Assembly (NCBI GenBank): GCA_003138515.1
Contig: PLGG01000033.1
Span: 1 to 64,000, forward strand
From: Acidobacteriaceae bacterium
GTDB taxonomy: Bacteria; Acidobacteriota; Terriglobia; Terriglobales; Acidobacteriaceae
Length of the DNA: 64,000 bases
Direction: 5' to 3'
Below the pieces are notes generated by a model. That model saw nothing but the letters and a program-made list of their open reading frames with translations. It had not been told where the DNA came from and did no database searches. Shown in pieces: positions 9,334 through 37,851 of this stretch. Positions within the stretch are counted from its first letter, which is position 1. The number at the start of each line of letters is the position of its first letter. The translations under genes and the position numbers were made by a program.

Positions 9334-9807
9334 ATGGATGAAGTGTTGAGGATGTACGCGATGAGTGACGGCGACCCCTTTGGGAAGCCGGGTGACCTGG
9401 ACCCCGGTCAGGTCGAAGCCTTTGCTGAAGAGGAAGATGAATTGGAAACCGCCGGCATCCTTACCTCCTCAGATGACGACGAAGTGATCGCCGAAGAGAC
9501 GGTGATCGCGATTGTTTCGAAGCCCGCAGCCCCGCCGAAACCCAAAAAGGCTGCGGCGAAGAAGGCCGCCAAGAAGGCTCCCGCCAAGAAGACGGCGCCG
9601 GCCAAGAAGGTAGCCAAGAAAGCCGCCAAGAAGGTAGCCAACAAAAAGGCCGCCAAGAAGGTGGCGAAGAAAAAGGCTCCGGCGAAGAAAGCCGCTAAGA
9701 AGGTAGCCAAGAAGGTGGCGAAGAAGAAGGCTCCGGCCAAGAAGGCGGCGAAGAAGGCCGCCAAGAAAGCCAAGAAGGCCGCAAAGAAGAAGAAGGGAAA
9801 GAAGTAA
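9334..9807 (+). CDS. Lys/Ala-rich histone H1-like protein with an AKKAAKK-repeat tail
   Basis: Acidic N-terminus followed by ~80 residues of PAKKAAKKV-type repeats; RBS ctggagg upstream of the refined ATG. Confidence 0.7.
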   Translation: MDEVLRMYAMSDGDPFGKPGDLDPGQVEAFAEEEDELETAGILTSSDDDEVIAEETVIAIVSKPAAPPKPKKAAAKKAAKKAPAKKTAPAKKVAKKAAKKVANKKAAKKVAKKKAPAKKAAKKVAKKVAKKKAPAKKAAKKAAKKAKKAAKKKKGKK

Positions 9808-34967: not shown

Positions 34968-35714
34968 CTACGAGGTGACAATCTTTTGAGCCACCGTCTC
35001 CTCGTCCAGTTCCGATTGAATGATTTTGTTGTGCAGGCAATAAAGAGCCAGTTCCAGCCGGTCTGAAACTCCGAGCTTGTCATAAATCTTGCGCAGGTAG
35101 TTCTTGATCACCTGCTCGGTGGTGCCCAACTGGAAGGCGATTTCCTTGTTCCGCTTGCCCTGGGTGATGCAGGTGATGATCGACATCTCCTTGGGCGAAA
35201 GGCGGGGCTGATTCCGCGGGCTGACGAGCGCGGCCGCCTGAGCGCGATAAGCATCGATCACCCAGTTGACTGACTGGTTATCGATCCATGTTTCGCCGGC
35301 GGCGATGCGGCGCACGCACCTGACGAGCAAGTCGGGCGAAATGGAACGGGACACGATGCCACGAACGCCACGCCGGTAGAGTTCCACAGTATGGCTTTCG
35401 TCGGATGAGACGGCTTGCACGATGAGTTTCACGTCCGGGGCCATGCGCAGAAGCTCGGGGATCGCATTGGCCGTCCCGGCCAGCATGCCTCCCTCCAAAA
35501 GCACAATGTCGGTTGGATAACGCTCGATGGCGGCGCGCAGATTCTCCAGCGAATCGGCCTGGGCAACTACGCGGATGTCGTCTTCAAGAGCGAAGACCTT
35601 GCGAATTCCGACGCGATAAATCGCCTGCGAATCCGCGAGTATAACGCGAACGGTCCCCGGCTTGACCGGAGTGTCAACACTCTCGCCTTCGGGGTTGTCG
35701 TCGAGGACTTCCAT
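34968..35714 (-). CDS. NarL/LuxR-type response regulator with atypical receiver
   Basis: Receiver-like N-terminus, LuxR HTH LSPKEMSIITCITQGKRNKEIAFQLGTTEQVIKNYLRKIYDKLGVSDRLELALY. Confidence 0.9.
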   Translation of the reverse strand: MEVLDDNPEGESVDTPVKPGTVRVILADSQAIYRVGIRKVFALEDDIRVVAQADSLENLRAAIERYPTDIVLLEGGMLAGTANAIPELLRMAPDVKLIVQAVSSDESHTVELYRRGVRGIVSRSISPDLLVRCVRRIAAGETWIDNQSVNWVIDAYRAQAAALVSPRNQPRLSPKEMSIITCITQGKRNKEIAFQLGTTEQVIKNYLRKIYDKLGVSDRLELALYCLHNKIIQSELDEETVAQKIVTS

Positions 35715-35743: not shown

Positions 35744-36112
35744 TCATTGCTCCGCAAACCGATAATCGTCAATTGTGGCCGCGGCGAGGTGCTCATTGTG
35801 GCTTGAGGAGCAGCGTACCACACGTCCCGTGCACTGGACCAGAACATCCTGAGGCGAACCCAGGACCGCGCGGGGCATTCGCATAGAAAATCGGACGTCG
35901 AGTCCGACTTGCAAAGCCTCGTCAAGAGCGAAGAGAACCCCGCTCGCGGAGACGTTTCGAGTCAACCCAACGATCTCATCTTCGCCAGATGAGAGCACCA
36001 CTGGCAAGGAAAGAGGAAATCGTACCGCGCAGCGAACTTCTTGCCGCCCTTGCGAGGGGTCTTGGACATCGGACGGCAGCGGTGTTTCTGGATTGAGAGA
36101 ATTCATAGACAA
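35744..36112 (-). CDS. PilZ-domain protein
   Basis: RQEVRCAVRFPLSLPVVL...GLTRNVSASGVLFALDEAL...VQCTGRVVR. Confidence 0.75.
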   Translation of the reverse strand: MSMNSLNPETPLPSDVQDPSQGRQEVRCAVRFPLSLPVVLSSGEDEIVGLTRNVSASGVLFALDEALQVGLDVRFSMRMPRAVLGSPQDVLVQCTGRVVRCSSSHNEHLAAATIDDYRFAEQ

Positions 36113-36479: not shown

Positions 36480-36592
36480 ACGGAAGAATTTTTTTCTAAT
36501 ACCACTTTTGTTGTAGCGCCGGTGCACCTTTTGGGTTACTCTAACAAAGCAAAGTTCTAAGGCGGAGTTGTCTACCGCAGGGAGAAAGTCTC

Positions 36593-36907
36593 ATGAGTTC
36601 GCGTACGTTAGTTGCCTTGAAATTCGGCGTTATTGTTCTGCTTCTCGTGTCTGTGTGCAGTGCGAGCGCAGTCCCATATGGCCCCTTGAGGCTGCCACCT
36701 CCGAGCGCGGCAGCAGCGGTGCCCTATGGCCCCTTGAGGCTGCCACCTCCGAGCATGGCAGCAGCGGTGCCCTATGGCCCCTTGAGGCTGCCACCTCCGA
36801 GCATGGCAGCAGCGGTGCCCTACGGCCCCTTGAGGCTGCCACCTCCCAGCATGGCAGCGGCGGTTCCTTACGGCCCCTTGAGGCTTCCACCTCCAAGCGC
36901 AGCGTAA
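36593..36907 (+). CDS. Secreted peptide with five tandem VPYGPLRLPPPS repeats
   Basis: Signal peptide MSSRTLVALKFGVIVLLLVSVCSASA followed by five units of a 16-aa (48-nt) repeat, then stop and terminator. Confidence 0.75.
   Translation: MSSRTLVALKFGVIVLLLVSVCSASAVPYGPLRLPPPSAAAAVPYGPLRLPPPSMAAAVPYGPLRLPPPSMAAAVPYGPLRLPPPSMAAAVPYGPLRLPPPSAA
36668..36907 (+). repeat. 48-nt tandem repeat, about 5 units
   Basis: gcggtgccctatggccccttgaggctgccacctccgagcatggca repeated with few substitutions. Confidence 0.95.
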
Positions 36908-36927: not shown

Positions 36928-36958
36928 AGGGCCCGCCTCTAAGAGGCGGGCCTTTTTG
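36928..36958 (+). terminator. Rho-independent terminator
   Basis: ggcccgcctctaagaggcgggccttttt. Confidence 0.85.
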
Positions 36959-36990: not shown

Positions 36991-37851
36991 GTGATCAAAG
37001 GGCGGCCCGCGCTGGGCATGCTGCTATCTTCAGATCGATTCGGCGATTGGTTGGACCCGACGTTTATGAGTATCGATGATCTGATTTGGCTCGTAGCATC
37101 ACTCGTGGAACTCGCCGTCATTGGGATGCTCGTCTACAGGCGCGTCTGGCGCACGTTACCGGTATTTTTTTCCTATTGCGTTTGGGATCTGACGAGTAAT
37201 CTCGCCATTTATGTAGTCAGCCTCTACGATCCGGGCGCTGTTTATCACGCCTATTTCGCGCAGACGGCCATTGATTCCGCACTGCTCTTTTGCGTTTTAG
37301 TTGAAATGGCCTGGTCAGTGCTGCGGCCGCTTCGAGCATCTTTGCCGCGAAGCGCACTGGTGGTCGTGGGAATTCTGATTCTGGTGGCTGGTGTAGCAAT
37401 CTGGCCATTCGCAGGCCTTCCTGGACTTGCTCACAGTACGTCGAAGGAAGGACTCCTCATCGCTCAGTTGCAACAGACGTCAACGATTCTCCGGATCTTA
37501 TTCTTCGTTCTGCTCGCCGGCGGCAGCCAGCTATTATCGATCGGCTGGCGCGATCGCGAGCTTCAGGTGGCAACAGGGCTGGGTCTCTATTCCATGGTCA
37601 GCCTTACGGTAGCTGTGCTCGATCTACACCAGACAACCGCGTCCCAGGTCGAGCACCTCAATCAAATTGCGACTGCCGGCTACATCTGTTGCCTGGTTTA
37701 TTGGGTCTTTAGCTTCGCGCAGAAGGAAGCAGACCGGAGAGAATTCACGCCGCAGATGCGGAGCTTCCTCCTGGCCGCCGCCGGAGCTGCGCGCACCACA
37801 CGTGTTGCGATGACCGATTCGCGTAGCGACAAACCGCCAAAGCAGGACTAA
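36991..37851 (+). CDS. Polytopic membrane protein, uncharacterised
   Basis: About seven hydrophobic segments. Confidence 0.7.
   Translation: MIKGRPALGMLLSSDRFGDWLDPTFMSIDDLIWLVASLVELAVIGMLVYRRVWRTLPVFFSYCVWDLTSNLAIYVVSLYDPGAVYHAYFAQTAIDSALLFCVLVEMAWSVLRPLRASLPRSALVVVGILILVAGVAIWPFAGLPGLAHSTSKEGLLIAQLQQTSTILRILFFVLLAGGSQLLSIGWRDRELQVATGLGLYSMVSLTVAVLDLHQTTASQVEHLNQIATAGYICCLVYWVFSFAQKEADRREFTPQMRSFLLAAAGAARTTRVAMTDSRSDKPPKQD

Follow-up and report, generated by a model that had tools for sequence, protein, structure and literature searches.

A secreted tandem-repeat peptide precursor and its adjacent seven-helix membrane protein form a conserved module of Acidobacteria with a possible role in peptide signalling

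The closest described counterparts of the locus reported here are fungal pheromone-receptor pairs, the peptide quorum sensing of Gram-positive bacteria and multi-core RiPP precursors. The fungal receptor Ste2 is a seven-helix membrane protein, and Gram-positive peptide quorum sensing is exemplified by the AgrD/AgrC and ComC/ComD pairs. The yeast alpha-factor precursor differs in repeat number from one close relative to another, with an effect on pheromone output (PMC5850478), and RiPP precursors with several cores, such as those of the microviridins, have been described (PMC5934393).

The module in our window (the whole 64-kb stretch of DNA that was analysed) resembles MFalpha1/Ste2 in that a signal peptide is followed by tandem copies of a short peptide and the partner is a membrane protein with seven predicted transmembrane helices (7TM) and a predicted extracellular N-terminus. 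It differs from the fungal pair in being bacterial, in the adjacency of the precursor and 7TM genes, and in an extra third protein without known relatives. The precursor lacks the Kex2 dibasic and dipeptidyl (EA) spacer sites of MFalpha1, its linkers being mostly Ala-rich, and the 7TM protein shows no significant sequence or fold similarity to the GPCR superfamily. The module is thus not a member of the alpha-factor/Ste2 family, as Kex2-type sites are absent and homology is undetectable. To our knowledge, a heterotrimeric G protein is not to be expected in bacteria. With AgrD/AgrC and ComC/ComD the module shares a ribosomal peptide, a putative specificity that differs between lineages, and an adjacent polytopic membrane partner. 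Its leader is, however, a Sec signal peptide instead of a double-glycine or amphipathic one, the 261-aa partner has no histidine kinase domain (no Pfam domain), and many identical copies are encoded per precursor, in diderm hosts. Multi-core RiPP precursors such as those of the microviridins likewise hold several cores, but the module has a Sec signal peptide for a leader, a 7TM protein for a partner and no adjoining modification enzyme. Among the window neighbours of the precursor (YceI, MarR, LuxR-RR, PilZ, a Na/H exchanger, DUF190, DUF6526 and others) no RiPP modification enzyme was recognised. A preliminary description of this DNA had proposed a multi-core RiPP or pheromone logic; the several cores and the likeness to pheromones stand, while a RiPP enzyme is lacking next to the gene.

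The N-terminal part of the precursor reads MSSRTLVALKFGVIVLLLVSVCSASA, followed after the predicted signal peptide end by VPYGPLRLPPPS, and continues into five units of 48 nt that make up the top-scoring tandem array of the window (Table 1). Each 16-aa unit consists of the VPYGPLRLPPPS core and a small-residue linker; the residue following PPPS is A, M, M, M and A in units 1-5, and the last unit is shortened, ending in PPPSAA before the stop. The Sec signal peptide and the five 16-aa units around VPYGPLRLPPPS are thus present as first described, apart from the short last unit. The terminator attributed to the gene is represented by a hairpin with a T-run, but as many hairpins turn up by chance in shuffled sequence (2.2 on average), and the count by itself carries no significance. 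Elsewhere in the window, a degenerate Lys/Ala-rich tandem repeat (AAGAAGGCCGCC) at 9542-9789 is perhaps a histone-H1-like tail.

Table 1. Coordinates of the features discussed, in window positions.
Feature	Coordinates	Strand	Basis
LuxR-type response regulator (neighbour outside the module, synteny marker)	34968..35714	-	
PilZ-domain gene (neighbour outside the module, synteny marker)	35744..36112	-	
Two-box promoter-like element, CTTTTGTTGTA-N16-TGGGTTACTCT	36505..36542	+	conserved upstream of precursor genes
Secreted tandem-repeat peptide precursor, 104 aa	36593..36907	+	ORF, signal peptide, repeats; orthologues; unit-to-unit pN/pS
Signal peptide, 26 residues, predicted end ...CSASA	36593..36670	+	sequence; alignment with orthologues
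Unit 1, VPYGPLRLPPPSAAAA	36671..36718	+	
Unit 2, VPYGPLRLPPPSMAAA	36719..36766	+	
Unit 3, VPYGPLRLPPPSMAAA	36767..36814	+	
Unit 4, VPYGPLRLPPPSMAAA	36815..36862	+	
Unit 5 (short), VPYGPLRLPPPSAA	36863..36904	+	
Hairpin, intrinsic-terminator-like, with T-run, between precursor and 7TM gene	36928..36954	+	12 pairs, 9 GC
7TM partner protein, 261 aa	37066..37851	+	alignments; AlphaFold2 model

Two further frames are likewise open over the repeat array, and translation therefore needed to be demonstrated. A protein search with the repeat found relatives in only three sister species because the units diverge, so that synteny markers were required. All three orthologues lie between a PilZ gene and a gene for a membrane protein of ~260 aa, and their units are VPYGGLKLPPPSVAAA (five copies), VPAGPVHLPPP (five copies, with variable linkers) and MPMGPMPMPP (five copies). 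With the LuxR-type response regulator, a conserved gene lying beyond PilZ, as synteny marker, the locus was located in 73 of the 81 genomes of the genus. A small ORF with a signal peptide and tandem repeats usually precedes the membrane-protein gene, and its repeat differs from species to species (IPAGPLHLPPPSLAAA, FPAGPMPLPPATA, IPMSPFPTKTAA, SPVIVPPMPTGGGKLAA, QPLIPLPPAVAAA, SPMVVPPNPFPQPQPKGNSSKVAF, GPMTPAPTPPGPTFA and others). Many species of the genus, for example at L081 and L096, carry an extra 1.2-1.7 kb between PilZ and the precursor that the window does not have.

Apart from a signal peptide and the repetitive layout, the precursor orthologues have little in common. Identity among the units of one gene is ~96%, and no pair among the 40 loci compared has an identical unit; homogeneity within the gene and the lack of sharing between loci would be expected of a ligand that carries specificity. 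In a unit-to-unit comparison of 52 precursor genes, pS was 0.291 and pN 0.034 (ratio 0.12), with pS exceeding pN in 50 of the 52 and differences at codon positions 1, 2 and 3 numbering 40, 27 and 218. The ratio was reversed in the other two forward frames (2.6 and 3.3). At L135, from a complete genome, 19 units of 15 aa encode identical protein with a pS of 0.37 and a pN of 0. Because the units differ almost only synonymously, these comparisons show that the repeats are translated and that the exact residues of every copy are under selection, beyond recent copying. A DNA-level element was rejected as an explanation for the repeat given that substitution is frame-specific, as was gene conversion alone, since synonymous sites differ and residues do not. 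Together with the syntenic orthologues in the three sister species, the frame-specific synonymous differences also indicate that the ORF in the window is no chance ORF. The preliminary description had named findings that would speak against it, among them a lack of orthologues with variable unit numbers or a conserved core and an untranslated ORF; we found orthologues with other unit numbers and species-specific cores, and differences that are synonymous in the precursor frame only.

Some genes carry a single unit (L039, L047, L070, L113 and in other genera) and leave ~10-30 residues after the signal peptide, which shows that one core suffices. At L179 and L183, the 7TM gene is preceded by a tandem of three single-unit precursor genes that are nearly identical, copy number here arising via gene and not unit duplication. 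The MAG contigs of L107-L111, L114, L124, L131, L134 and L136 break off within the repeat array, and precursor genes are therefore often broken or missing in assemblies.

The adjacent 7TM gene had gone unmentioned in the preliminary description. We read 74 loci of this gene in the genus, 69 of them with at least 250 bp upstream, and a precursor lies directly upstream in 62 of these 69. The tally, made by reading the outputs, comprises 43 ORFs in which a script detected repeats, 10 arrays truncated where the contig stops, five gapped or two-unit forms and four single-unit forms; at the other seven loci no precursor was visible. At the 11 LuxR/PilZ loci that have no 7TM gene inside about 3 kb, precursors are absent throughout (62/69 vs 0/11, Fisher p 3e-9). 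The pair is intact at L135, where it lies 26 kb away from the usual place, and at L143 and L144, where the 7TM protein has diverged (25-26% identity). At ~16 loci (L066, L087, L093, L097, L104 and others), a second 7TM protein, ~30% identical, is encoded directly downstream of the first. The pairing of precursor and 7TM gene is thus observed, and a ligand-receptor function is what we infer.

The longest ORF of the 7TM gene begins with GTG at 36991, the alignment favouring the ATG listed in Table 1. Relatives were found in 73 of the 81 genus genomes at E <= 1e-8, a figure that takes in some distant members. An AlphaFold2 model based on 25 homologues (pLDDT 81, pTM 0.75) has seven membrane-length helices and a C-terminal helix, and the distribution of K/R, which falls on the cytoplasmic side, predicts that the N-terminus is outside and the C-terminus inside. 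Mean entropy is 1.06 in the cytoplasmic loops and 1.19 in the cytoplasmic half-helices, compared with 2.37 and 1.91 on the extracellular side (p 3e-11). The invariant residues, the polar ones being E80, R164, E165 and R224, cluster in the C-terminal tail and on the cytoplasmic face. Co-variation with the core beyond phylogeny gave a partial r of 0.11 (p 0.056) for the outer face and 0.26 (p 0.006) for the cytoplasmic face.

Sequence searches of Pfam, NCBIfam and PDB gave no convincing match for the 7TM protein, the latter two having been run with this protein only, and a PDB profile search returned one chance match that was not a GPCR. Foldseek searches of PDB with the models of this and the third protein likewise gave nothing significant, E being 0.03 at best and TM no higher than 0.49. 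For the 7TM protein, GPCRs were listed at the top, and because their E was 0.03 and their TM about 0.4, these matches reflect the seven-helix shape only and not homology. None of the three module proteins matched Pfam, PHROGs or PADLOC, the models of anti-phage defence in PADLOC included; the preliminary description, too, had recognised no known family. Rfam gave no convincing match for the components tested.

The third protein, of ~172 aa, is encoded after the 7TM gene in 58 of the 74 loci of named genomes, at several of them with a spacing of 5 nt. Divergent modules keep the identical gene order, this protein included. In the genome of the window, its gene lies on another contig (C85, L298:3648-4166). 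Its model has one N-terminal transmembrane helix and is helical in the remainder, with a highly conserved helical domain; neither Pfam nor a Foldseek search with the model gave a significant match, and no recognisable output domain was found in this or the 7TM protein. Upstream of the precursor, the element CTTTTGTTGTA-N16-TNGGKTASTCT is present in 50 of 50 testable genus loci vs 0 of 50 shuffled controls. The genome of the window holds a single two-box site at up to three mismatches. Six of eight other genomes searched also have one, upstream of the precursor by coordinates, and two have none within three mismatches. No wider regulon was found, with one site per genome where present; the element is promoter-like and dedicated to the precursor.

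Across the class, a profile built from the 7TM protein recovered members from 149 of the 400 genomes examined, covering 50 of 135 genera. In a phylum-wide sample, all matches fell in the window's own family and none outside the class. Upstream of the 7TM gene in other genera, small secreted Pro-containing precursors were counted by eye in 17 of 17 better and about 27 of 39 weaker matches. They include the multi-copy peptides FGPGGGMPSPIGQTGLIA, VTGSDPMPKSKGGLTTIA (10 copies) and ADGSGPVPPFPPKPPVML (four copies) and the single-copy peptide MNKSIRNLALTAAVLFSTAAPMFANMTGGNPHPQVASVALSLGDYASIVISVFGL, and their cores repeatedly show a loose G-x-[DNG]-P-x-P motif. Named carriers include Terracidiphilus MAGs, Occallatibacter savannae AB23 (L274), with the predicted unit IPGIPSPKPIPANPxxSF, and Acidobacteria bacterium AB60 (L251), with the predicted unit GPIVPTPPPPGPTVALA. 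In Acidicapsa dinghuensis, the 7TM gene is present and a precursor was not seen in the stretch read. Judged from sequence, the module is class-wide and occurs in many soil Acidobacteria.

We posit that the precursor gives rise to a short proline-rich peptide ligand and that the adjacent 7TM protein is its receptor, in the manner of alpha-factor and Ste2 and without evidence of homology, a reading to which we assign a probability of about one half. It is suggested by the identical, selected copies, the change of the unit between species, the single-copy versions and a fixed 7TM partner with a variable outer and a conserved inner face. The earlier notion of a multi-copy, secreted, pheromone-like precursor gains strong support from orthologues that differ in unit number and core, from the purifying selection that acts on every copy, from the existence of single-copy genes and from the fixed 7TM partner. 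The precursor would be exported via Sec and its signal peptide then removed; the repeats would be cut at their small-residue linkers into peptides of ~12-16 aa. Such peptides may dock on the outer face of the 7TM protein, either in the producing cell or in cells nearby, and the signal would then be relayed by the conserved cytoplasmic face, probably via the membrane-anchored ~172-aa protein. A broader version is possible and put forward tentatively: a class-wide system whose Sec-exported, multi-copy propeptide is the source of pheromones particular to each species. These would act through a dedicated 7TM receptor on a membrane-anchored helical protein, making the system a separately evolved bacterial analogue of fungal pheromone-GPCR pairs.

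The ligand-receptor reading is weakest where it supposes processing, passage of the peptide across the outer membrane and a receptor role for the 7TM protein. Unit boundaries are mostly Ala/Ser-rich, and no dibasic sites occur at those listed. Cleavage of a signal-peptidase kind at every boundary, as first suggested, is uncertain: of 251 internal boundaries, only 159 have an A-x-A-like site before the core, and in many species such a site is missing. Genes for a protease or an exporter were not seen to accompany the module. In a diderm cell, an outer membrane lies beyond the periplasm, and a Sec-exported 12-mer could for this reason stay periplasmic.

Other roles of the pair were weighed. The units may be antimicrobial peptides against close relatives, with the 7TM protein protecting the producer; close linkage of a single membrane protein with species-specific, diverging peptides would suit toxin-immunity pairs as well. 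Antimicrobial peptides rich in proline have been described, and a second 7TM copy sometimes adjoins the first. The 7TM protein is, however, best conserved at its cytoplasmic face and C-terminal tail, beyond the need of an immunity protein, and a third conserved protein travels with it. Its gene is near-universal in the genus and not patchy, no exporter or modification enzyme is linked, and the libraries searched, PADLOC included, gave no match; we consider this role unlikely. The 7TM protein could also anchor or assemble a structural Pro-rich polymer of the surface or periplasm, Pro-rich repeats being common in structural proteins. The linkers of many species, which are not clear protease sites, and a precursor that conserves little but signal peptide and repeat pattern would both suit such a polymer. 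The few residues that single-unit genes leave for it do not, and residue-identical units that persist despite high synonymous divergence and change wholesale between species exceed what a spacer polymer needs, making this explanation improbable.

It is less probable still that the 7TM protein is a processing enzyme or exporter of the peptide, with the receptor located elsewhere. Fixed gene order and co-occurrence suit a maturation partner, and the invariant polar residues might be taken as a sign of such an activity, but these residues lie at the cytoplasmic face and C-terminal tail, opposite a Sec-exported substrate, and no protease or transporter family was matched.

In the open-access literature searched, we found no description of the module and no peptide signalling system in Acidobacteria. 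The module is new as a kind, a statement that rests on the observed genes and their arrangement and not on the proposed function. Acidobacteria are widespread and abundant in soils. If the ligand-receptor reading is true, this would be the first peptide signalling system for Acidobacteria, with predicted ligands for dozens of species, and a case of a 7TM receptor working without a kinase domain. Even with another function, the three-protein module would represent a family that is new and widespread and whose selection pattern is extreme and informative.
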